IMG/VR virus record: IMGVR_UViG_3300046028_002904
Span: 1-29,391 of that record
Reading direction: 5' to 3' (one strand)
Length of the DNA: 29,391 bases
From: a virus
Part shown: positions 1-29,391 of the stretch, one piece after another
Position numbering within the stretch: position 1 is the first letter of the stretch
How the letters are laid out: the number at the start of each line of letters is the position of its first letter
Position numbers and translations under genes: made by a program
The notes under the pieces: generated by a model
Database searches by the model: none
What the model saw: only the letters and a program-made list of their open reading frames with translations
Told to the model about the DNA's origin: nothing

Positions 1-594
1 GAAGCTATTTGGTTCGTCAATGATTTCAACATCAATGGCATCACTCTTGATCTTACTGGCAATCCGAGCCTTTGCATCAAAAATCATTTTAGCCGCATCG
101 TCAATACTAGCCCCCTTGCGATGTTCCACGATTGAGGATGCCATTCCGGTAAGTTGCGCCGCCTTGTCGGTAAGGATACCCACCGTCACAGCCAGCTTGT
201 CCGGGCTAATCTTGGCAAGCTCCTCTGGATTATCAAATAGTTGCTGGGAACGCTCAAAGAGCAAATCGGTGTAATCTTGCGCCGCAATCGCGTATCGCAT
301 CGAGAATTCCTTGCGCTTTGTCTCCAGCGTATCGTTGTGCCGCCATTGCAGCCCCCTAATGGTCTCTCTGCCAAGCCCTGTCTTCTTTTGGATGTCGGTT
401 ATCCTCGCGCCTTGTGCGGCCAGCCATAGGGCCATTGCGGCCTTGTTTGGGGCATAGTGTTCGACGCAGTTTGAAGGGTTCAGCTTCGCACGTTCCTTGA
501 CTTCAAGAAACCACGCGGACTTGTCTTCTCGCTCGTCAACATATTCGGCCTTGAGCTTCTCGTTGGGATCAATTGGTGTTGGTTCCGAAGTCAC
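1..594 (-). CDS. Probable terminase small subunit (3' end cut by window edge)
   Basis: An open minus-strand frame of 198 codons starts with GTG at 594 and runs off the left edge without a stop. An in-frame TAA lies four codons upstream, and no ATG is available near it. Around residues 50-82 is a helix-turn-helix (NKAAMALWLA, then ITDIQKKTGLGRETIRGL). A helical region follows (residues 95-150) with the phrase KLAVTVGILTDKAAQL, typical of small phage DNA-binding proteins that act as terminase small subunits, which recognise the packaging site and form a ring that feeds the large subunit. It is the last visible gene of late block B, 35 nt after the 1153-aa ejection-type protein, so the large terminase would be expected just beyond the edge. 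The role is inferred; another HTH regulator is possible. Confidence 0.6.
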   Translation of the reverse strand, partial: MTSEPTPIDPNEKLKAEYVDEREDKSAWFLEVKERAKLNPSNCVEHYAPNKAAMALWLAAQGARITDIQKKTGLGRETIRGLQWRHNDTLETKRKEFSMRYAIAAQDYTDLLFERSQQLFDNPEELAKISPDKLAVTVGILTDKAAQLTGMASSIVEHRKGASIDDAAKMIFDAKARIASKIKSDAIDVEIIDEPNSF

Positions 595-629
595 TTGGAG
601 TTCTTAGCCTTTCTTTTCAAGAAATGCAA

Positions 630-3600
630 TCATTTTTGGGATTTGACTCCAGATGCTTCAGGAACTAGTTCACCATTACGATTAAACCTTGGCGATTGAG
701 GCATGAGGTTATCACGAATGCTGTAATAGGAGCTTGGGCCAAACGGAATCACAACGTCGCCGCTGGTCTTGATTGCGCTTTGAATTCGGTCAAATGCGAA
801 CGTCCTGAAGATTCCAGTAACCTTGTCTGGAGAAACCTGCGACATGAGCGGGTTGGTTTTTAGCTGCCTTTTTGTCTGCAACCCAAGAACAGAGTTAATG
901 AAGTTTTTACGCCGCTCCCAATTTTTAGGATCAACGCTTTGATAATACGCGTCGGTTGACTTACCCGAGTTCTGAATCTCGACGGACTTTTCAATATCCT
1001 CCAAGATAGATTTACGAGTCAGCCCAAGTTCTTTTGAAATGTCGTTTTTCAATGCCCTCGTGACATTCTTCTCAAGCTGGCGAAGATCCATTGACTCAAG
1101 ATATAAACGCCCTTTCTTCAGAACCCACTTAGTAGGAACAACATACCCTTCAGCAATTCCTTCAACTTGAACAGAACGACCTTGTCTGAATGGTTTGTTT
1201 GTAACAAGAAGTCCGTGTTTTTGTGACGCGTCTAGTGCGTCTTGCAAAAACAATGCTTCTCCAAACCTGCCATCATCAATTACACCAGATTCTTCCAACG
1301 ATTTAAGGTGATCCGCCGTAAGAACACCTTCTCCATTTCCATTTTTATCTGGAATCAAAACGCCATCTGGCAGTTTCTCGCCACGGTCAACAAAACCTTT
1401 ATTGACCTGCTCAATAACAGCATTTGCTTTGTAGTGACTTAGGTTGTCGGATTTGACATCAACAATCTCCTGCGGTCTTGCGGCCCTTGGCTTTCCAGAT
1501 GTTTCCCGATACATCTGGCGAACCATAGACTTCACTTCTGGAATTTCACGAAATCCTTCCGCAAGCAATCCAGTTCCCATTACCATGCGTCCGGTTGCAT
1601 CGGTTGCCCCACCCAGCTTAAAGTGCAAACCCTTAACAATGGGTGTGACATTAAAGATGGTCCTGAAGGTGCTTTCTACATTTCGCCGCAATGGCGTTTT
1701 TCTAGATTCTTTGTAAAGATTGCCCTTCAACGTGTCTTCAAGAAGAGTCTTTACACCTTGATCCGTGAAATATTCAACGGCTAGTTCGCTCAAGTCGGAT
1801 GGAGCAAGACCGTTTTGTTCTCGCAGACTGTTGTATTCTTTCGACCATGCGTTAAATTCCGCGTCAAGGGTTCCGTCAACATTGCGAACCAACCCAGACC
1901 TTGTTTCGTCTCCAAGCATTCTTGATACGATAGCAGCGTCATTTTGCCAAACGTGCTGAATCATGTGTCCCGCTTCGTGCATAGCTACTTCCTTGAGGAA
2001 TCCAACTTTGTCATTGATGTTCACAACCGCCCTGCGACTTGCCGGATCAAAGAAGTTATTGCCTGATTCTGTAATATCCCACTTGAACATTCCGGGATAC
2101 GCGGCATCAATTCCAGAAATAGCATACCTGAAATCACGGTCTTTGAGCTTGTCAAAAGCAGCAACTTGATCCACGTCTAGTTTCTTGCGGTAATTGAACA
2201 TCTGATCAGCATTCACCTGATCCATGTTTTTCTTGCCGCCAATCAACCTTCCAAGAGAACCAAAGATAAGCGCATCACGTCCAGCCCGCTTAACAGTGGT
2301 TTCATCAACGCCTTGATCGTTGATCGCATTGTAAATAAGAGTCGCGGGAGCCGCTTGAGCAATGCCCTTTGACGCATTCACGACACCTCTTGCAAGGGGA
2401 GACGAGTAGTCACCAAGTGTTGCAACAGCGCGGCCCAGTCCACCAACGCTCTCATTTGCGGCAACACGCCTAAAGAAAGGAGTTGAGCTAGTCCGTTCAA
2501 GCATTTCTTCGCTCATAACGCGGCCAAAATTTCCAAGTTTACGCAAAATCTTTGGCGCAACAACAGTCCCCACTTTGATTCCTGCATAAGTTGCAAACGC
2601 AACTGGGTTTGTCAAAAAAGTAGCGGCTTGAATAATTCTTGGAATGCTGCTGTAACCCCCAAATTTTTCTGCTTTTCTAATGAATCTATTTACTCCCGCT
2701 ATCCCTGCACCAAGTTTTTCAGCCCCAATTGCAATACCTTTTGTTGCACCGGATGCAACTTGGCGAGTCATGTCCCCAGCAGTTTTGATTGAATCAATCC
2801 CGATTTCGGTCTTGTTTGCAAAATCGCTGATGTTTTTTATGCCGTCATCAATTTTGCCGATTTGAGAAGCGATTTCATCAGATTGCGAGGTAAGGACATT
2901 GAGCTTGTTGGTTAACTCTAGAGACTTTGCCTGATCGCCTACTTTGACGGCATCATCAAGTTGACCTGAAACCAACAATGCATCATCGGAAATCTTCTGT
3001 GCCGCAGCAGTTGCCACGCTCTTTGCATTAGTCAACCTCCGTCCTTGAGCGACAGCAACAAGCCCTTGTTCTGCTTTTCTTGTGGCGTCGGCAATGCGGA
3101 TCATCTTGAAACCAGTAGCCAACCCAGCAGTTGCTAGTCCCACGGCCAATCCCGGAACATCGCCACCAGCCTGCCCTACTGATTCGTAGTTATTCATTGC
3201 CTCCGTGAATTTCTTGTCGCCACCTTCGTTACCGTATTGAGTGACGTAGTTTTGCCGAGTCTGCTCAACAACATTTGCCACTTCTTCGCCAGCACCAACA
3301 ATTCCAGCAAGTTCGGCAGCACTTGTGTTGCGAAGGGTTCGGTCAAGCATTTCTTTTTGATACCGCTCCTGATTGTCTCTGCGATCTACCTCTTCTTTTG
3401 ATATCAAGCCAATTGTTTCAAGAATCGGCAGCAGTCCAACATCTTGTCCAAAAACATTTGTCTTTGCAATTGCGGTAGCTGTTTTTTGCATGCTCAAGCC
3501 CGCACCTTTAACAAGCCCACTTACCGCTTGTGCTTGAGCCGCCTTGACCTCTTCTATTGGCTTGCCGGAAAACGTTCCTCTGAGCAAAACGTCAGCACCT

Positions 3601-4091
3601 GCACCGAATCCTTTCAAGCCCTTCCATAGTTCTGTGAAAAGTCCATCCTCAGATTCCTCTGGTTTATCAAGGCCAGCTTTGCGCCGAATTGCGTAAATTT
3701 TTTCTTTTTCAGGATTCTCGCCCAAAGTCATCCCGTTATCAACCCACTCTGCCGTATTAAATAGCTCTTCGTCTGGAGTGGTGAAAGCAAATCCTTTTTC
3801 AGTAAGTAACCCATCTTTGATTAAGCCACGTTCCTCCAGCATGAGGTAGTTCTCGCCAAATAAAGTCGCGTCACCTTTTTCGTCAAGGATGCCGCGAATT
3901 TTCATTCCATCTTCAGTGTTGAATTCAGGAACAACGAATTCCTTACCAATCCGAGGGTCGTTTAACTGAAGGTTATACCAATTAGGTGTCCGAGAAGACA
4001 TTTCCGCCTTCTTGATATTCTCAACTTCTTCTGCAAGATACTCCTTAGTAGCCTCGGATTCAAGCGTTGCAATATCAGATTCTGGCTCCAT
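630..4091 (-). CDS. Large internal virion (ejection) protein with embedded zincin-like peptidase motif
   Basis: This is a 1153-aa, mostly helical protein rich in Ala, Lys, Glu and Asp, like the big internal virion proteins that podoviruses inject with their DNA. Residues from about 310 to 700 hold several Gly/Ala-rich hydrophobic stretches (for example GLAVGLATAGLATGF and AATFLTNPVAFATYAG), possibly membrane-interacting, and a coiled-coil-like segment near 365-430. A zinc-peptidase signature HEAGH is at residues 705-709 in the context FLKEVAMHEAGHMIQHV, and a candidate third ligand lies in SELAVEYF (Glu 769 or 773). Its ATG shares one base with the TAA of the preceding gene (TAATG), so the two are translationally coupled. 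The ejection role is inferred from size, composition and position between other ejection-type proteins and terminase; the zincin is inferred from motif spacing. Whether it cuts capsid proteins, peptidoglycan or host proteins cannot be told. Confidence 0.7.
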   Translation of the reverse strand: MEPESDIATLESEATKEYLAEEVENIKKAEMSSRTPNWYNLQLNDPRIGKEFVVPEFNTEDGMKIRGILDEKGDATLFGENYLMLEERGLIKDGLLTEKGFAFTTPDEELFNTAEWVDNGMTLGENPEKEKIYAIRRKAGLDKPEESEDGLFTELWKGLKGFGAGADVLLRGTFSGKPIEEVKAAQAQAVSGLVKGAGLSMQKTATAIAKTNVFGQDVGLLPILETIGLISKEEVDRRDNQERYQKEMLDRTLRNTSAAELAGIVGAGEEVANVVEQTRQNYVTQYGNEGGDKKFTEAMNNYESVGQAGGDVPGLAVGLATAGLATGFKMIRIADATRKAEQGLVAVAQGRRLTNAKSVATAAAQKISDDALLVSGQLDDAVKVGDQAKSLELTNKLNVLTSQSDEIASQIGKIDDGIKNISDFANKTEIGIDSIKTAGDMTRQVASGATKGIAIGAEKLGAGIAGVNRFIRKAEKFGGYSSIPRIIQAATFLTNPVAFATYAGIKVGTVVAPKILRKLGNFGRVMSEEMLERTSSTPFFRRVAANESVGGLGRAVATLGDYSSPLARGVVNASKGIAQAAPATLIYNAINDQGVDETTVKRAGRDALIFGSLGRLIGGKKNMDQVNADQMFNYRKKLDVDQVAAFDKLKDRDFRYAISGIDAAYPGMFKWDITESGNNFFDPASRRAVVNINDKVGFLKEVAMHEAGHMIQHVWQNDAAIVSRMLGDETRSGLVRNVDGTLDAEFNAWSKEYNSLREQNGLAPSDLSELAVEYFTDQGVKTLLEDTLKGNLYKESRKTPLRRNVESTFRTIFNVTPIVKGLHFKLGGATDATGRMVMGTGLLAEGFREIPEVKSMVRQMYRETSGKPRAARPQEIVDVKSDNLSHYKANAVIEQVNKGFVDRGEKLPDGVLIPDKNGNGEGVLTADHLKSLEESGVIDDGRFGEALFLQDALDASQKHGLLVTNKPFRQGRSVQVEGIAEGYVVPTKWVLKKGRLYLESMDLRQLEKNVTRALKNDISKELGLTRKSILEDIEKSVEIQNSGKSTDAYYQSVDPKNWERRKNFINSVLGLQTKRQLKTNPLMSQVSPDKVTGIFRTFAFDRIQSAIKTSGDVVIPFGPSSYYSIRDNLMPQSPRFNRNGELVPEASGVKSQK

Positions 4092-5068
4092 TAGCGATTT
4101 CCTTGTGGCTTTATTTTAGCTCGGAGCCTGTCATTTGCAGTCAATGGTCTTTCTGGTGCTGGCTCCGTCTCTGTTTTTCCTTTAATTGTTGCGTCAAACG
4201 CATTGCGGGTTTTTTTAAGCTGATCAAGCTCTTCTTTTAAGTAACTTTCCCAAATTAACGGACTGTCTGTTTCTTCAGGCGCAGTTCTTGCCGTGAGGAA
4301 TCTAAGGTCAGTATCGGTCACTGGAGCTACTGCCCTTGCTCGTTCTAAAACGTCATCGGTTGTTAACGAAACAAGATCTTTTATTAGCTTTTGATTTTTT
4401 TCTGCCCACTCAGCCCCTAACTCTGAAAAGATTGCGCGTCCAAATCTAGCTGCTGGTTCAGTTGCACCAACAACATCGCTAATGTCTTGACTCATCACCC
4501 TTTCAATTTTTGCAATTTTGCTCTCAGCTTCTTGCTTGAGTTTTGATGATTCTGACAAAGCTAGTTTGCTTTTGCGTTCTTCATCTTTTCTAGCTAGATC
4601 CATATCTAGTTTTGCTTTTTCCTCTTGAACTGACACAGCTGGCTTGATAACTGTTGACAAAATTTTACCAGCTCCTTCTGGATCTCCCGCTTTGGTCAAA
4701 TCAAAAATAGACTGCACAATTTTGGGATCAACTGTAACACCTCTGTTTTCAGCGTCAGCCAATTGTGATTGAAATGCCATTAAAGACGCTTCTATTCGTT
4801 TGGCCTTTATGTTTTCTTCTGCTGCGACAGGAGCCGCTGAAGCCCCTTCTCTTTTGAGGTTAGCTCCATAAAACTGCCCCAGATTCTCGAAATCTGCTAA
4901 AATAGACGGGTCTTTACTTTGGATTTTGCGTAAAATGGTTTGTTCAAAAACGTCTGCTTGTTGATTAAATCTTCCGGCACGAAGTAGGTCAATTTTTTGT
5001 TTTGCGTCGTTTACGGCCCCCCTAATACTTGAGTTAGGAGAAAGCAAAGTTGTGAAGTCAGTAGCCAT
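4091..5068 (-). CDS. Putative internal virion protein, coiled-coil
   Basis: A 325-aa protein with no signal peptide. It is strongly helical and charged; residues about 150-190 (EEKAKLDMDLARKDEERKSK and on) form a clear coiled coil. The C-terminus is Pro/Lys rich (EPAPERPLTANDRLRAKIKP). It sits between two other ejection-type proteins and overlaps the next gene by one base (TAATG). No enzyme motif is seen. The start ATG at 5068 follows an AT-rich leader without a Shine-Dalgarno sequence. The family is not recognised; the internal virion role rests on composition and neighbours. Confidence 0.6.
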   Translation of the reverse strand: MATDFTTLLSPNSSIRGAVNDAKQKIDLLRAGRFNQQADVFEQTILRKIQSKDPSILADFENLGQFYGANLKREGASAAPVAAEENIKAKRIEASLMAFQSQLADAENRGVTVDPKIVQSIFDLTKAGDPEGAGKILSTVIKPAVSVQEEKAKLDMDLARKDEERKSKLALSESSKLKQEAESKIAKIERVMSQDISDVVGATEPAARFGRAIFSELGAEWAEKNQKLIKDLVSLTTDDVLERARAVAPVTDTDLRFLTARTAPEETDSPLIWESYLKEELDQLKKTRNAFDATIKGKTETEPAPERPLTANDRLRAKIKPQGNR

Positions 5069-5569: not shown

Positions 5570-6589
5570 TTATTTGATTTTTGAGTAATCAACCATCTTA
5601 ATCCCAGATGGTGCTGTTGCAGCGGCTTTGGGTTGTTTTTTCTCAACATCTTGAGCCATGACGCCCATTTGCGTTTTATCTTCTCCCTTGTATTTGAATG
5701 TGTAAATTGGAAGACCTCCATCAGTTTTGCCAATTTTTTCAATGTCTTTCTTAACCCTTTTATCAGAAAAGGACAGAGCAGCCATCCCAAGGGCTGCGGC
5801 TGTTGATGCCGCTGCTTGCGTATTAGCATTCCTAGTTTGAATATCAGCAGCATATTTAGATTGAGCTGCTTGGAATTGATTTTGTCTTTCTGACGCTCCC
5901 AAATTAAATGGTGTTCCAATATCAATCATTTGCGGACGACCCGATCCAATGGCTTCAAGCCCAAGGCCCATCATTTGTTGCCCAGACTGGTAGGATAATG
6001 GTTGGCTATTAAGAATCTGTAGTCCCGGCTGCGTGTAAAACTGCCCTGCCATTTTGTATGCGCTTTCGCCAGCCCGTGCTGCTTCTGCCCGCTTTTGAGC
6101 CATAACATCTTCACGCCCCATTGCTTCGCTGACGATACCTAGGTTGCCACCAAGTCGCCCAGATGCTTGAAATGCCTCTCGCGCTTGTTGCTCGTATCCA
6201 CGACGCTCTTCTGGAGTCACGCCTTGTGCTGACGCCCTAGCTCGTTCCGCCTCTTGGGAAGACGCCTGAACTGCGGCGGCTTGTTCTGGCGAAAGAGCTT
6301 GCATCAAGCCTCGCGTCATTCCAGCCTGTTCCGTCGTTTGACCAAGTTCGGCCTTCCGAGCCGCACCAAGTTGTCCTAATGCTTTTTCGGTAAATTGTGG
6401 AGCTAGACCCATTGCTCCAAGTCCAAACTTAGAAACATCAAGTAGGTTTAGATCTTGCCATTTTGGTCTGTATTCAGATTCCAGCTCGTAAATACTAGGA
6501 AATCCTTTTGTCAATCCACCTACATAAGATAAAATATCTTTTTCGTAGTTTGCTTTTGGTGTTTCTGGCGTCTTAGGAGAGCTTCCCAT
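5570..6589 (-). CDS. Virion protein with C-terminal Peptidase S74 intramolecular chaperone domain
   Basis: A 339-aa protein in two parts. Residues 1-270 are Ala/Gln/Glu-rich and helical, with repeated short patterns (AAAVQASSQEAERARASAQG, QAREAFQASGRLGG), unlike a beta-stranded fibre. Residues about 273-338 match the S74/endosialidase-type intramolecular chaperone: SDKRVKKDI, GLPIYTFKY, MGVMAQDVE, MVDYSKI. In this family the chaperone trimerises the protein and cuts itself off just before the Ser of the SDxR motif, here Ser275, after a hydrophobic Ala-rich stretch. Phage databases usually call such proteins 'tail fiber domain-containing'. It lies within the ejection-protein cluster, so it may be a tail needle or internal protein and not a side fibre. 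The domain call is firm; the role is not. Confidence 0.75.
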   Translation of the reverse strand: MGSSPKTPETPKANYEKDILSYVGGLTKGFPSIYELESEYRPKWQDLNLLDVSKFGLGAMGLAPQFTEKALGQLGAARKAELGQTTEQAGMTRGLMQALSPEQAAAVQASSQEAERARASAQGVTPEERRGYEQQAREAFQASGRLGGNLGIVSEAMGREDVMAQKRAEAARAGESAYKMAGQFYTQPGLQILNSQPLSYQSGQQMMGLGLEAIGSGRPQMIDIGTPFNLGASERQNQFQAAQSKYAADIQTRNANTQAAASTAAALGMAALSFSDKRVKKDIEKIGKTDGGLPIYTFKYKGEDKTQMGVMAQDVEKKQPKAAATAPSGIKMVDYSKIK

Positions 6590-6598
6590 ATTCTTGTA

Positions 6599-6922
6599 TT
6601 ATTTGAGTTTTGAGTAAAATTGTTGTATATTGTGAACCCTCACGCGAGGAGAATTCTTAAATTCACGCCGGAATGCGATGTATTCAAAGTCATCGCTGAA
6701 CTTTCTAAGAGCTTTTCGCATGTCACCAACGCATATGGTGACAAAGAGTGTGTTGGAATGGTGAATTTCACATGCCTGCTCTGGAGATTCTTCTTGCGAG
6801 TAGAAGCCAAGACAAAAAGATTCATCGTCAGAAACGACAACGCCAAAGCATAAATGCCAATACAAAAGTTTGTGAAAGTCTTCGCCATATATTTTTAATG
6901 CGTCTTCAAGGTGCGGGTTCAT
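6599..6922 (-). CDS. Conserved phage protein of unknown function
   Basis: A 107-aa soluble protein with three Cys and several His (YWHLCFGVVVSDDESFCLGF, LFVTICVGDMRKAL, IAFRREFKNSPRVRVHNI). The pattern looks like a compact alpha/beta fold. I recall similar proteins as conserved unknowns in podovirus-like structural clusters, but I cannot name a family. Its ATG overlaps the stop of the upstream fibre gene by 4 nt (ATGA), which indicates coupling, and a 9-nt gap separates it from the S74-tailed gene. It may be a virion or chaperone protein for the neighbouring fibre; that is a guess from position. Confidence 0.6.
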   Translation of the reverse strand: MNPHLEDALKIYGEDFHKLLYWHLCFGVVVSDDESFCLGFYSQEESPEQACEIHHSNTLFVTICVGDMRKALRKFSDDFEYIAFRREFKNSPRVRVHNIQQFYSKLK

Positions 6923-7617
6923 CCGATAACAATAAAGGTAGTTTCTCTACCAACTGTCTCTGTATTATGTGCAATATCAAAACCCGTAATAGTCAAGTTC
7001 TTCGCGGCTGGCGGTGCGCCAGCTATACCTGCCGTCCCCGCATACCCGCAACTAACAATGTAATTGTTGTCTGGCATGGCAGTGCTAAAAACAATACTAG
7101 TTGAAGAGCTATCGGGTCTTACAGCACTCGCTACGTTAAAACCTTTTCGGATAACCCTCGGGTTGCCTTGCGTAATTGACCCTGATGATCTCACCCCATA
7201 AATTGGAGCAGTCCCAGTTTGTGATCCATTCAGCTTTTCTGCAGTAATGTTGGCGTCAAGTATTTTTGCCGTGGTCACGTTTGCGTCAAGTATTTTTGCC
7301 GTGGTCACGTTTGCGTCAAGTATCTTTGCGGTGGTTACATTAGAATCTGCAATTTTCAAGGTGGTTACACTAGCATCGGCAATCTTGGTAGTAGTCACGT
7401 TTGCATCTAGAATCGCAGTTGTCGTAACTGCATTTGCAGCCAACTCGTTTGCTTTAATCCCCCCGGCAGCAACGGAAAGTTTGCCAGCAGAAACAGCAAG
7501 AGTAGTGCCAATAATAGCAGTAGCTGTAATCGTGCTTTGATCGAGGATGTTGTTCATCTTCGTGCTAGTGATTACGTCAGTAGCTGTAAAAGTATAACTT
7601 GTATTAATTGCTCCCAT
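6919..7617 (-). CDS. Tail fibre-like protein with tandem 10-residue repeats
   Basis: A 232-aa protein in three parts. Residues 1-60 are a Thr/Ile-rich head (MGAINTSYTFTATDVITSTK). Residues about 60-130 are tandem 10-residue repeats of the type ILDANVTTAK, six to seven copies. Residues 135-232 form a beta-rich C-terminal domain (SIVFSTAMPDNNYIVSCGY, ETTFIVIG). Repeats with regularly spaced Val/Ile and Asn/Thr are typical of trimeric beta-helical phage fibre or spike stalks, and the tail domain resembles fibre knobs of the 'MPDxNYxV' type. The gene follows the nozzle after 3 nt and overlaps the next gene by 4 nt. Most likely it is a trimeric fibre or needle attached near the tail; receptor binding is inferred. 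Confidence 0.7.
   Translation of the reverse strand: MGAINTSYTFTATDVITSTKMNNILDQSTITATAIIGTTLAVSAGKLSVAAGGIKANELAANAVTTTAILDANVTTTKIADASVTTLKIADSNVTTAKILDANVTTAKILDANVTTAKILDANITAEKLNGSQTGTAPIYGVRSSGSITQGNPRVIRKGFNVASAVRPDSSSTSIVFSTAMPDNNYIVSCGYAGTAGIAGAPPAAKNLTITGFDIAHNTETVGRETTFIVIG
7247..7450. repeat. 30-bp tandem repeat array inside the fibre gene
   Basis: Units of 30 bp in frame with the fibre gene. The copies at 7261-7290 and 7291-7320 are identical (starting TATTTTTGCC, ending TTTGCGTCAAG), and the next four copies toward 7450 are degenerate. Each unit encodes ten residues. Two perfect neighbours beside decayed ones point to a recent duplication by slippage or unequal recombination. 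Confidence 0.9.
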
Positions 7618-13234: not shown

Positions 13235-13429
13235 ATGACACATTCCGTAGAGATCACAAAAGAAGCCGCATTCGCGCTCATTGGAAACGATGAAAAGACA
13301 TGGAACGATTACCAGCAAAACGAGCTTTCCGAAACGTCATTTTATCTGGCGCATGGCGTGAGGATCGCAGTAATTCACAATTACCTTTCCAACGTGACGC
13401 AGTATTACATCCAAGACGTGAACGCATGA
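13235..13429 (+). CDS. Small protein, unknown
   Basis: A 64-aa acidic-to-neutral protein (EAAFALIGNDEKTWNDYQQN, HGVRIAVIHNYLSNVTQYYI). It looks like a compact alpha/beta fold. The ATG at 13235 was chosen over an upstream in-frame ATG because it directly follows the recurrent leader AAACAAAACGAAAC (13220-13233). No family recognised. Confidence 0.55.
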   Translation: MTHSVEITKEAAFALIGNDEKTWNDYQQNELSETSFYLAHGVRIAVIHNYLSNVTQYYIQDVNA

Positions 13430-13449
13430 ACCACAAGCAAAACGAAACG

Positions 13450-13752
13450 ATGACACACACACACACACACGGTCCTTGGCATATCGCTGACGAGGGAAGT
13501 CAGATTGTCATTCAAACATTTTCAAATCACCCGACTGGCACTTTGGCAAGAATCTACAGAACGGATGAATTGGCAAATTCTGACGCTCGCCTTATTTCCT
13601 CCGCGCCTGAGTTGCTGGCAGCATTGGAAGATGCGGAGTTTCTGCTAAGGAAAGCGGGACTAATGGCGGGACCGATGCGGGACAGTTTCAATCGCTCAGC
13701 AAGTGACGCTCGCGCCGCAATCGCCAAGGCAACGGGAAAGGGGGCGGCATGA
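13450..13752 (+). CDS. Conserved small phage protein with 'ARLISSAPELLAAL' motif
   Basis: A 100-aa protein. After an N-terminal THTHTH stretch comes GPWHIADEGSQIVIQ, a beta-rich part, and the helix DARLISSAPELLAALEDAE, a signature found in many unnamed phage proteins of about 80-100 aa. Function unknown. The start ATG at 13450 follows the leader CAAAACGAAACG. The codons right after the start form an (AC)9 dinucleotide tract (13453-13470), where slippage would shift the frame. It overlaps the next gene by 4 nt (ATGA), giving coupling. Confidence 0.65.
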   Translation: MTHTHTHGPWHIADEGSQIVIQTFSNHPTGTLARIYRTDELANSDARLISSAPELLAALEDAEFLLRKAGLMAGPMRDSFNRSASDARAAIAKATGKGAA

Positions 13753-13946
13753 AAGCAAGAATTACGTTCCCGACAATAGAGCAAGCAAACGCATTGGCTA
13801 CGGCATGGACACGCTCAACACTTACGGGACACACTAAGGGACCGGACGGCAACGGCGGTTTCTATGTAGATCTTTACAACGTGACAGAGGAGCGCGAAAA
13901 ATGGATAAATGAACAGGTTGCAAAACTAAACAATCAAAACCAATGA
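13749..13946 (+). CDS. Small protein, unknown
   Basis: A 65-aa protein (KARITFPTIEQANALATAWT, GPDGNGGFYVDLYNVTEER). It has a beta-alpha pattern with a helical C-terminus. It overlaps both neighbours by 4 nt (ATGA). Unlike many genes here it has a purine-rich Shine-Dalgarno-like stretch (AAAGGGGGCGGC) ahead of its ATG, lying inside the preceding gene. No family recognised. Confidence 0.55.
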   Translation: MKARITFPTIEQANALATAWTRSTLTGHTKGPDGNGGFYVDLYNVTEEREKWINEQVAKLNNQNQ

Positions 13947-25104: not shown

Positions 25105-26132
25105 GTGGAGAGGGTTTGGAGTTTTGCGTTGGGGAGGCGTTTCTTGAAGTAGCGGAAAGATGCAAATGTTCCATTTAACTGCCCTCCACCACCAGAAGTC
25201 GGACTAATACTGCCAATATACAAAGCGTTCAAAGAAGCTGGAATTGAGCAAAGCGTATCAATCCCGATCTCAGCATTATTTGAATAAAATGCAAAATTAT
25301 TGGCAATAAAACCAAAGGATTGCTTTATTTGTTGAGATGGTGGGATAACGGTTGTATCAAAACTTACATCAGTTACTGACGAGGATGTGCTTCTAAATCC
25401 AACACCTCCACTAACTGTCGACCTAAACGCCCTTGATGAATTTACTACGGTTGCGCTTGACAACTCCCAAATTCTTTGCGCGGAACCAATCAAAGGAGGC
25501 ACATTAAAAATAGTGTTAGTGAACAACGATCCCTCAAGCGGATTATAAAACCCACTGAAATCACTTCCAGTAATGCTGCACACATCGGCACTACGGGCTA
25601 AACTTGCGGTGGTCGTCGGGATGTAGCTGGTGGGGAAAGCCCCTGCTTCTAGTTGTGCTTGCGTTACCGATCCTGTGACCGTCATAATAAGACTACCCGC
25701 AGTTGGCGTAAACGTAAGCGTGGTGCGTGTTGGGTAAGCTCCTGTTCCAGTAACCGTTGCTGTGGCTGCACCAGATAATACAACTGTTCCCGCTCCGTAG
25801 AAAGAAAGTGTGTGGGCGACTGCTGTAACCGTGCGCGTTTGAGTGGTTAACGTATCGCTTGGGAACACCAAGTTAGTCCTGCCCTCCTCAATGAGCAGCC
25901 CCTTGCAAACCAGCGTGACCGGATCGTGGTCGAAGCGGGCAGCGTTAATAGCAGCAGATTGGATCAAGCCGTTACTCCCAACAAAAGTGGCCGTAGATGC
26001 ACGGGTGAACACCGGAGTCGGCCCTTTGCGAGCCGTGAGCGTCTTGTCAGTGGCGAACTGGAGGTCGAGGGAAAGCTGGTCAGCATTTAGACCACCAGCA
26101 CCATTAAGCATATTTCCAAGAGCGTATTTCAT
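25101..26132 (-). CDS. Tail fibre/spike-like receptor-binding protein
   Basis: A 343-aa beta-rich protein. The first 180 residues have the pattern FTRASTATFVGSNGLIQSA, FDHDPVTLVCKGLLIEEGRT and LEAGAFPTSYIPTTTAS, the signature of phage fibre/head-spike proteins with a concanavalin-like sugar-binding fold. The second part (about 200-340) is a similar beta sandwich (FGFIANNFAFYSNNAEIGID, FRYFKKRLPNAKLQTLST). It probably binds a host surface glycan. The ATG shares one base with the upstream adaptor's stop (TGATG). Confidence 0.75.
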   Translation of the reverse strand: MKYALGNMLNGAGGLNADQLSLDLQFATDKTLTARKGPTPVFTRASTATFVGSNGLIQSAAINAARFDHDPVTLVCKGLLIEEGRTNLVFPSDTLTTQTRTVTAVAHTLSFYGAGTVVLSGAATATVTGTGAYPTRTTLTFTPTAGSLIMTVTGSVTQAQLEAGAFPTSYIPTTTASLARSADVCSITGSDFSGFYNPLEGSLFTNTIFNVPPLIGSAQRIWELSSATVVNSSRAFRSTVSGGVGFRSTSSSVTDVSFDTTVIPPSQQIKQSFGFIANNFAFYSNNAEIGIDTLCSIPASLNALYIGSISPTSGGGGQLNGTFASFRYFKKRLPNAKLQTLST

Positions 26133-27118
26133 CAGTAGCGCATTTGCATGTTCGCGTTAGTAAAGATGCGGTTTGAAACTAGTCCGCTTGTATGGTTCTC
26201 GTCAAGCCGGATCATTTCATCTTGCAGCACGGCTTCGGCTTCAGCGTCTGCCATTGCCGCCTTTTCCTGCTGCCCTTCGGACTTCAGCCAGTCGGCATAA
26301 GTGCCGTGAGCTAGATAGTGGAACCACTCAGCGGGAACGTCAGAGATTTCACTAGTGTTGTCTCCATAAATGTCAGTCAATTGCTTTTTGTATGTTACAA
26401 ATGCTGTTAGCGGGTTAAGACTGCCAGAAACCAACTCAGCACCATCTGATGTGGCATAGTAGTCAAACTCCTGAACTGACGAATTTCGGTATGGCTTTTG
26501 AACAAATATACGCATAAACGTATCAATAGAATTTTTTCCAGCTTCAACGTAAGGAATGGTTGAATCAGAAACCCTGACTGTTCCGTTTCCAGTGCCTGTC
26601 CCGCTAGCCAAGAAGTAACTATCTACGGAGAACGACTTGAACGTTCGAGATGTCAGTGTCGCCTGAGTCGGTGATATCGTGTAAGTCCCAATGCCACCAC
26701 GCCCTGTCCCAAGTGCTGTTACTTGAACGCCTCCAGTCGTAAGTCCAACCCCAGTAACGTAGTCTCCAACCTGTATCGTCCCAGATGTTACAACTGTAAC
26801 CGTAAGGACGGTTGTGGCGATGCTTGCCGTGAATACCGCATTAGGAGTAGCACCAATCAAGCTGTAATCCGTCGTCCCTACACTCGCAATAAAATAACCA
26901 TTGCCGGAAGTGGTGGTGGTTGCTGCTACCGGAGCTGGAGTGCAATACCGCTCTTCACCAACAACTAGGAATCTAGTCCAGTAATTGCTGGCGCGGAATA
27001 CTCTAGCGACTCGACGGTTAATCAAAGACTTTACTCTGATTGACTCAGCAATAGAGAAAGAGATGCCACACAGAGCTTGGATAAGTCCGTATAAATCAGA
27101 GTAAAGTCTAGTTTGCAT
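26132..27118 (-). CDS. Adaptor-like (gp11/tubular A type) protein, copy 2, with large insertion
   Basis: A 328-aa paralogue of the next gene. The common core is at residues 1-57 ([40 protein letters not shown]) and about 188-328 ([54 protein letters not shown]). Residues about 60-187 are an insertion of beta modules. Adaptor proteins of short-tailed phages bridge portal and nozzle, a role fitting the helical core. It overlaps both neighbours by one base. Two adaptor-like copies are unusual; one may serve as a fibre anchor. Confidence 0.65.
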
Positions 27119-27756
27119 TAACCTTGTGAAGTTCTTGGCACAGCATTCGCTGTTGCATTTCCACCTACGTTCGTCAGGAATCGTGTTCCAAATGTAACTC
27201 CTGCGCCTTGTTGTTCAATTTGAACAAGTTCATCATTAAGAATCATTGCGGACTCTTGATCGGCTAGTTGGGATTTTTCCTGTTGACCTTCGGCCCGCAA
27301 ATAGTCAGAATAAACTCCATGTGCCATATAATCAAACCATTCACTAGGAATCAGGGGTTGCATACCAGTTGTCTCACCATAAACGTCAGAGAGGACTTTT
27401 TTATATGTAACAAATGCCACAGTCGGGCTTGCGCTTGTTATCAATTTAGCTCCAGCAGAATCAACATAGAAATTGTAATCTTGTGAACTTGTGGTTGTAT
27501 ATGGAGCAACAGCTTGAATTTTTAAGAATGTCCCGATAGGATCAAGCACACCTTCAATGTAAGGAACATTTTTGGTCGCAACAGCACGGGATTGGCCAAC
27601 CGTAATAAATCGAGGCCAATTGTTTGAAGCACGATATGCACGTTTAGCACGACGATTTACAAGAGCGTTAATTCGAGGAAGCTCGATAGTAGCAAATTCA
27701 ACACCGCAAAGCGACTTGACTTGATCGAGCAATTCGGTATATGTTTTAGTAGTCAT
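27118..27756 (-). CDS. Adaptor-like (gp11/tubular A type) protein, copy 1
   Basis: A 212-aa, mostly helical protein. Core motifs: [93 protein letters not shown]. The same motifs in the same order appear in the gene after it. These proteins resemble the tail tubular A / adaptor type that docks on the portal and receives the nozzle. A Thr/Asn-rich tail ends the protein. The leader is AT-rich without a Shine-Dalgarno sequence. Confidence 0.65.
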
Positions 27757-28551: not shown

Positions 28552-29391
28552 TTAGTAAGCAATCTTGCCGTGCGCTTGCGGATGCTTGACACAGAGAGTG
28601 CCAGCAACGTCAACATAGCCACGTTCGCCACCACCTTGGTTCTCAAGACGAGTGCCGCCCATTGGGATCAGGGTATTAAAACCAAGATACTTAGGGTTGA
28701 GGACATAACCGACGTTGGTCGATGCGGTTGGCATACAGCTTGGGTTGCCGTTGACGATTTTCACGATACCGAAGTCGGAATCATAGAGGTTGACCGAAAG
28801 CGTGATCGCCTTGCTGGTCGCGTCTTGATTGACATGATAGGTGACGCCAGCATTCGTAGGTTGAGCGCGGGTGAAGCCGCTGATAACTTGGCGAAGAGCC
28901 GTGTTAGCAACAAGCGTCAGGCTGTTCATTTCACCATTCTTGCTGAAGATCGAACCCAACATGGTGTTAAAGGTCGATTCAGTAACAGTGGTGGCAAGGA
29001 TCGAACCGGAAGGGGTGCGATAGTCAACAGGGACAGCGTTGGTAGCTTGAGCAGTGGCTTGAATCCACTTGCCAAGGCCGCGCATACCGTAAGGAGTGCC
29101 AGCACCGTTTTCGACGGTCATTTCGTTGTCGGAAGCGATGGTAGCCTCGATGTCACGCTTGATTTCACGCATACTCTTGGCCTCCGCCTGAGCTACGTTT
29201 GCAGGTCCAACGCTGGTAACAGCTTGTTGCAGGTTCGACACAAGGTAATCGCGGCGCATCAGTTGGATGTAGTTACCCAGACGAGCGCGATCAGCAAACT
29301 TGTCGCTGAACGAGGTAACGTCGGAACCTTCGGAAATACCAGTCGTAACTGGGGATGCGAGGGAATCAACGGTCCACTCGGTGAACGTCGA
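28552..29391 (-). CDS. Major capsid protein, SU10 type (5' end cut by window edge)
   Basis: The frame stays open to the right edge, giving 279 visible residues (29391 down to 28555) before the stop; the methionine at 29259 is internal, because the coding pattern continues upstream of it (TFTEWTVDSLASPVTTG). The segment NYIQLMRRDYLVSNLQQAV, KSMREIKRDIEATI and MRGLGKWIQATAQA matches the SU10 major capsid family (DUF5309), HK97-fold shells of podovirus-like phages. The beta-rich remainder (LVANTALRQVISGFTRAQPT, LGFNTLIPMGGTRLENQG) also fits. It is expected to be the most abundant virion protein. The N-terminus is missing. Confidence 0.8.
   Translation of the reverse strand, partial: STFTEWTVDSLASPVTTGISEGSDVTSFSDKFADRARLGNYIQLMRRDYLVSNLQQAVTSVGPANVAQAEAKSMREIKRDIEATIASDNEMTVENGAGTPYGMRGLGKWIQATAQATNAVPVDYRTPSGSILATTVTESTFNTMLGSIFSKNGEMNSLTLVANTALRQVISGFTRAQPTNAGVTYHVNQDATSKAITLSVNLYDSDFGIVKIVNGNPSCMPTASTNVGYVLNPKYLGFNTLIPMGGTRLENQGGGERGYVDVAGTLCVKHPQAHGKIAY

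Follow-up and report, generated by a model that had tools for sequence, protein, structure and literature searches.

The 1153-residue protein P0001, encoded by an ejection-type gene at 630..4091 on the minus strand of the window (the whole 29,391-nucleotide stretch of viral DNA analyzed here), very likely contains a zincin-type domain, and belongs to a new family, common in IMG/VR, of a known class, phage polyvalent proteins that carry a zincin metallopeptidase (Iyer et al. 2017, PMC5512222). The domain is predicted by structure modeling; zinc binding, ligand geometry and proteolysis are inferred. P0001 is a module-less member of this family. Where relatives carry C-terminal modules, the peptides at the two junctions of a module resemble each other within one protein, differ among lineages, and track the lineage rather than the module. 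Lineage-specific junction peptides of this kind are undescribed within the literature that we searched, and no junction peptide or cutting site was named in the text searched of PMC5512222, PMC7824862 and PMC9503650.

The reading frame of P0001 opens with an ATG, and stops are abundant on the plus strand across 630-4091. A prior sequence-only reading had proposed a metallopeptidase embedded in a large ejection-type protein, with HEAGH at residues 705-709 of 1153, and had named absence of conservation in homologues as grounds for refutation. The motif, the predicted zinc-binding and catalytic site, lies exactly there (1965..1979, minus strand), and its conservation was confirmed. HExxH was retained in 23/23 relatives covering the site in the first IMG/VR search, down to 37-38% identity, and was complete in 107/109 sequences of a homologue alignment, in which H705 and E706 were each present in 109/109 and H709 in 107/109. 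Judged by this conservation across relatives, HEAGH in P0001 stands far above chance. For the third ligand the same reading had offered Glu769 or Glu773, and only the second candidate held: position 773, within AxEY[FY] (1773..1775, minus strand), is Glu in 109/109 sequences, versus 16/109 for position 769, which is ruled out. We therefore assign E773 as the third zinc ligand, an assignment based on conservation, with zinc binding itself inferred. The two sequences departing from the motif (L148 and L151) carry HELLE in place of HExxH; these natural HExxE variants retain the remainder of the domain as well as RYMPE junctions. Their existence lends some support to the view that the zincin fold is inactive and kept for structure as part of an ejection conduit, but with the motif's two His and its Glu, as well as the distant Glu, intact in 107/109 sequences we consider this very unlikely.

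The fold was examined in a focused AlphaFold2 model of residues 628-800 (1692..2210, minus strand), which was built from a 41-sequence alignment reaching down to 22% identity and returned a pLDDT of 88.3 and a pTM of 0.81. An earlier AlphaFold model of 281 aa, based on 27 close homologues, had reached a pLDDT of 62 and gave Foldseek matches that were noise, a problem that the deeper, focused alignment resolved. The modeled order is a helix, a three-stranded sheet, the HExxH helix (motif at model positions 78-82, inside helix 69-87), an insertion, and a later helix (140-151) bearing E773 at model position 146, which is the topology described by Iyer et al. for polyvalent-protein metallopeptidases (PMC5512222). 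The best PDB matches found by Foldseek were ArdC of R388, IrrE/PprI, selecase, abylysin and jannalysin, minigluzincins among them, and polyvalent, IrrE-like and SprT-like proteins were among the matches in a viral structure library. All of the top 13 PDB matches are zincin-fold entries, with a best E-value of 0.075 and none below 0.05; the comparison thus backs the predicted fold through its consistency and not through statistical significance. The closest match, ArdC of plasmid R388 (PDB 6SNA), is itself a metallopeptidase of the type seen in polyvalent proteins. It is limited as a parallel, as no ArdC-N domain is recognized in P0001, the Foldseek score is weak (E 0.075, prob 0.77), and the setting is a phage and not a conjugative element. 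The check proposed by the sequence-only reading, structure prediction followed by a structural search, has accordingly returned a predicted zincin topology with zincins as nearest structural neighbors, albeit at weak E-values, and the embedded metallopeptidase is supported, while its substrate is unproven.

Neither Pfam nor PHROG assigned a family to P0001, and no match was obtained by tblastn against 50,697 annotated phage records or by a sequence search of the PDB; a scan of genome contigs found no relatives in bacteria or archaea. Weak Pfam matches (Senescence, syntaxin) and T4 lysozyme profile matches at E 0.02-0.2 were dismissed as chance. The first search of IMG/VR recovered 24 close relatives, and later scans yielded 33 and then 56 related loci, together with 158 stretches related to the zincin region. 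Every member of the P0001 family with a complete ORF has the zincin-bearing core. A second core family, in which the motif reads HETLH, HEINH or HEFMH, is homologous to the first in the zincin domain (22-31% identity, active site conserved across both) and shares modules with it. Like the MPTase domains of known polyvalent proteins (PMC5512222), P0001 combines HExxH with a Glu on a later helix and occupies a late-gene location, and its relatives are fused to ART-PolyVal and other domains. It differs in having no Pfam or PHROG match, in its new core family, and in that Pfam recognizes no second domain in P0001 itself, unlike relatives with several.

P0001 sits in a late minus-strand block, and the window also has tail genes and an amidase; the criterion of a late gene adjoining virion genes, used for polyvalent proteins, is satisfied. 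The downstream gene (1..603, minus strand) adjoins the large terminase gene in relatives and is a putative small terminase by position only; its counterpart in the 42.8-kb relative G001, G001_13499_14062, shares 95% identity with it and is a direct neighbor of TerL, which in that genome lies two genes away from the zincin gene. Directly upstream, with a one-base overlap, is a 325-aa gene (4091..5068, minus strand) placed in the ejection cluster by position, and in G001 the same upstream position is occupied by a 292-aa gene with a match (E=4.8e-12) to phrog_2534, annotated 'released from the phage upon host infection'. The major capsid protein, truncated by the window end (28552..29391, minus strand), matches phrog_1328 (E=4.6e-31), and its 97% identical G001 orthologue is SU10_MCP PF17236 (E=3e-50). 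SU10 gp20-24 leave the virion upon genome release (PMC9509320). Gene position, the SU10-type capsid and the phrog_2534-matching neighbor support well, in the absence of virion data, that P0001 is likely ejected, with packaging and delivery into the host inferred.

The ejection-type, internal-virion-like character assigned by the sequence-only reading thus has contextual support, whereas its T7-like comparison is not the best fit, the nearest capsid being SU10-type; no lytic transglycosylase domain, a feature of the T7 gp16 type, was matched by Pfam in P0001. By analogy, P0001 may work like an ejection protein of the kuravirus SU10 without being a detectable homologue: the capsid type of a relative and the phrog_2534-matching neighbor are alike, but SU10 gp20 is a transglycosylase, none is recognized in P0001, and no P0001 relative was found in isolated phages. 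The C1 domain of the phage N4 virion RNA polymerase (PMC12633501) is likewise an HExxH domain within a giant ejected podovirus protein, although the P0001 family has no recognized RNA polymerase module.

Several further features of these genomes were recorded. The adjacent minus-strand genes at 26132-27118 and 27118-27756 apparently arose by tandem duplication, as both match one and the same gene in each of G001, G002 and G006, and the first copy has an insert resembling tail-fibre sequence (phrog_38233). A tail-fibre-like protein at 6919-7617 (minus strand) has decapeptide-type repeats (ANVTTAKILD), and an ejection-cluster protein at 5570-6589 (minus strand) ends in a Peptidase_S74 chaperone domain, similarly placed in phiGT1 (L049). 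G002 (13378-13761, minus strand; L202) and G006 (33756-34115, minus strand; L205) encode a small second HExxH protein, with RHE[ML]MHAAF conserved in both genomes.

Relative to G001, the window has a capsid protein at 97% and a downstream gene at 95% identity, against only 42% for the zincin protein. DNA breakpoints fall inside P0001 at about residues 50-90 (L010, L004) and near residue 1046 (L038), and in L038 a DNA identity of 86% runs on from near residue 1046 through the downstream gene; the P0001 gene is mosaic at the DNA level. The breakpoints differ among L004, L010 and G001, which ruled out that P0001 and the upstream gene are exchanged together as one unit. The conserved core ends at residue 1142, beyond which relatives extend by 8 to ~680 residues. 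In P0001 only the tail VPEASGVKSQK follows (residues 1143-1153; 633..665, minus strand), where relatives have SGVKLMPQ or SVKFMPE and then modules. The sole junction-like peptide left in P0001 is NLMPQ at the core end (residues 1128-1132; 696..710, minus strand), whose N1128, L1129, P1131 and Q1132 are invariant in the first core family and which resembles the NYMPE that ends the core of the second.

The recognized C-terminal modules of relatives are ART-PolyVal (ADP-ribosyltransferase), E3_binding and YkuD; matches to ParB_N and to GNAT are weak, several further modules have no recognized identity, and the phrog_7348 'endolysin' match of the L012-type module was not accepted as a function. 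The same module can occur on cores that are just ~40-44% identical (L004 versus L032 and L039). The E3_binding domain, the peripheral subunit-binding domain of 2-oxoacid dehydrogenases, occurs in C-terminal modules of L005, L008 and L065-L081, above the Pfam cut-off in L008, L073 and L075; conceivably, this module docks on a host dehydrogenase complex, its carrier protein probably being injected. A YkuD L,D-transpeptidase domain lies at the C-terminus in L032 (8736-10613; above cut-off), L034 and L043, and might be a wall-acting part.

An intact HExxH is retained in 19 module-less loci, as it is in P0001, and module release therefore cannot be the sole role of the zincin. This retention, in members with little of their own to release, speaks for a rival explanation in which the zincin is an effector that cuts a host protein after ejection, the junction peptides being unrelated to it. 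The fast divergence of the gene compared with the capsid (42% versus 97% identity when the window is compared with G001) is typical of conflict proteins and points the same way, and host targeting is given by Iyer et al. as an alternative for such domains (PMC5512222). Against it, strong conservation extends over the active site and the entire C-terminal half of the core, a better fit to a fixed internal role than to a changing host target, and the lineage-specific junction peptides are left unexplained. We regard the effector reading as possible.

Most modules in both core families are flanked by [RKS][FYL][MLVIT]P[EQKT], chiefly RFMPE or R[LY]MPQ, although a few added modules (e.g. L061, L063, L080) show no such peptide. 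Single proteins contain up to 6 copies of the motif, versus 0.18 expected. Copies concentrate at the edges of modules, with 79/94 lying no more than 15 aa from a module boundary and 58 boundaries having a copy within 6 aa (14.5 +/- 3.6 expected). The stricter form R[FYL]MP[EQK] was absent from all other proteins of the three relative genomes examined.

A module that also occurs in unrelated phages is flanked there by other pairs, namely FSIG/FSIG, FMAGP/FMAGP, FSPAD/FSPAD and QFExK/QFExK. To quantify the resemblance, the best 6-mer was picked for each pair of flanks, with shuffled pairs given equal freedom and lineages thinned by shared 6-mers, without a tree. Flank similarity over 34 lineages was 723, compared with 499.8 +/- 22.0 for shuffled pairs (z about 10; maximum 593 in 20,000 shuffles). 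An independent test with the ART module, over 52 lineages, gave 1093 versus 679.2 +/- 26.5 (shuffled maximum 836; z 15.3), with pairs such as QYSDRD/RYSDRD, RYSLKD/RFSLKD and RFALTD/RYALTD. Control positions 60-120 aa away or within the module gave z between -1.4 and 2.4, as against 15.3 at the junctions. Conversely, two different modules in one protein carry the same peptide (6 lineages, p=0.009).

Since the gene is clearly mosaic, the junction peptides could be leftovers of DNA-level module shuffling, that is, short repeats that recombination has exploited or copied and that have no role in the protein. Consistent with this, paired copies share codons somewhat more often than codon usage predicts, matching at 73/134 identical residues (49.8 expected) and at 47/81 (35.0 expected). 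The excess is modest, and ~44% of the codons for identical residues differ between paired copies; because many of these codons have diverged, the peptide is apparently maintained mainly at the protein level, by selection on the peptide, and pure DNA duplication was judged insufficient as its origin. Shuffling also fits poorly with one module having different peptides across lineages and different modules having the same peptide in one lineage, and we consider this explanation unlikely.

Repeated, lineage-specific peptides between the modules of a protease-bearing protein resemble, by analogy, the cleavage sites of self-processing polyproteins, processing itself being inferred. In the model that we propose, P0001 would correspond to the core of a 'polyvalent' protein that is packaged in the virion and ejected, and would include a zinc metallopeptidase domain of the gluzincin type (H705, E706, H709, E773). 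Site-specific processing is the mechanism that we favor most: the zincin would cleave the polypeptide of which it is part, and perhaps other ejection proteins acting as partners, at short junction peptides (R[FYL]MP[EQK] in this phage family), separating the core from any attached effector modules during assembly or after entry. P0001 would be a natural module-less form that has kept the enzyme together with a single site at the core end (NLMPQ, 1128-1132). Autoproteolysis of polyvalent proteins into working units by their zincin domains was already proposed by Iyer et al. (PMC5512222), and phage P1 DdrB, a virion protein with an MPTase, is processed prior to packaging (PMC5512222), although its architecture differs and the likeness is without a tested sequence link. 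Conversely, the N4 virion RNA polymerase is packaged uncleaved with its HExxH domain present (PMC5512222), and the HExxE variants L148 and L151 keep RYMPE junctions. With packaging, zinc binding, catalysis and junction cleavage all inferred, and without proteomic data, we find autoprocessing at the junction peptides evenly poised between acceptance and rejection.

A strict link of the junction peptides to an HExxH in cis was looked for across lineages and not found. In the ART-module test, 18/52 lineages had no HExxH in the available ORF, many of them with paired junction peptides, and several had no HExxH nearby; the cutting enzyme, if any, is not always a cis zincin. These lineages, together with the RYMPE kept by the HExxE variants, favor a further rival, in which another phage or host protease cuts the junctions, or the junctions are docking or translocation tags guiding modules through the tail. 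Against this stand the zincin-bearing core in every complete-ORF member of the P0001 family and the absence of any protease gene recognized by Pfam or PHROGs in the scanned G001 late genes, several of which are unidentified. This rival cannot be excluded. Returning to autoprocessing, a bolder reading would treat polyvalent ejection proteins as injected self-processing polyproteins, in which a cleavage peptide particular to each lineage flanks the effector modules and co-evolves with the protease, so that a newly captured module would need to gain the site used locally; here we lean slightly toward doubt.

Injected phage proteins that contain a metallopeptidase were already known as a kind (PMC5512222); the family reported here is new. 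The junction peptides provide, for dozens of phage lineages, explicit and testable candidate cutting sites; one of these phages, Dolichospermum phage Dfl-JY45 with FSR-type junction peptides, has been isolated. The peptides also offer a practical means to locate module boundaries in giant phage proteins and, through them, injected effectors that are as yet unknown, while module-less members such as P0001 are natural controls for roles of the zincin other than module release.
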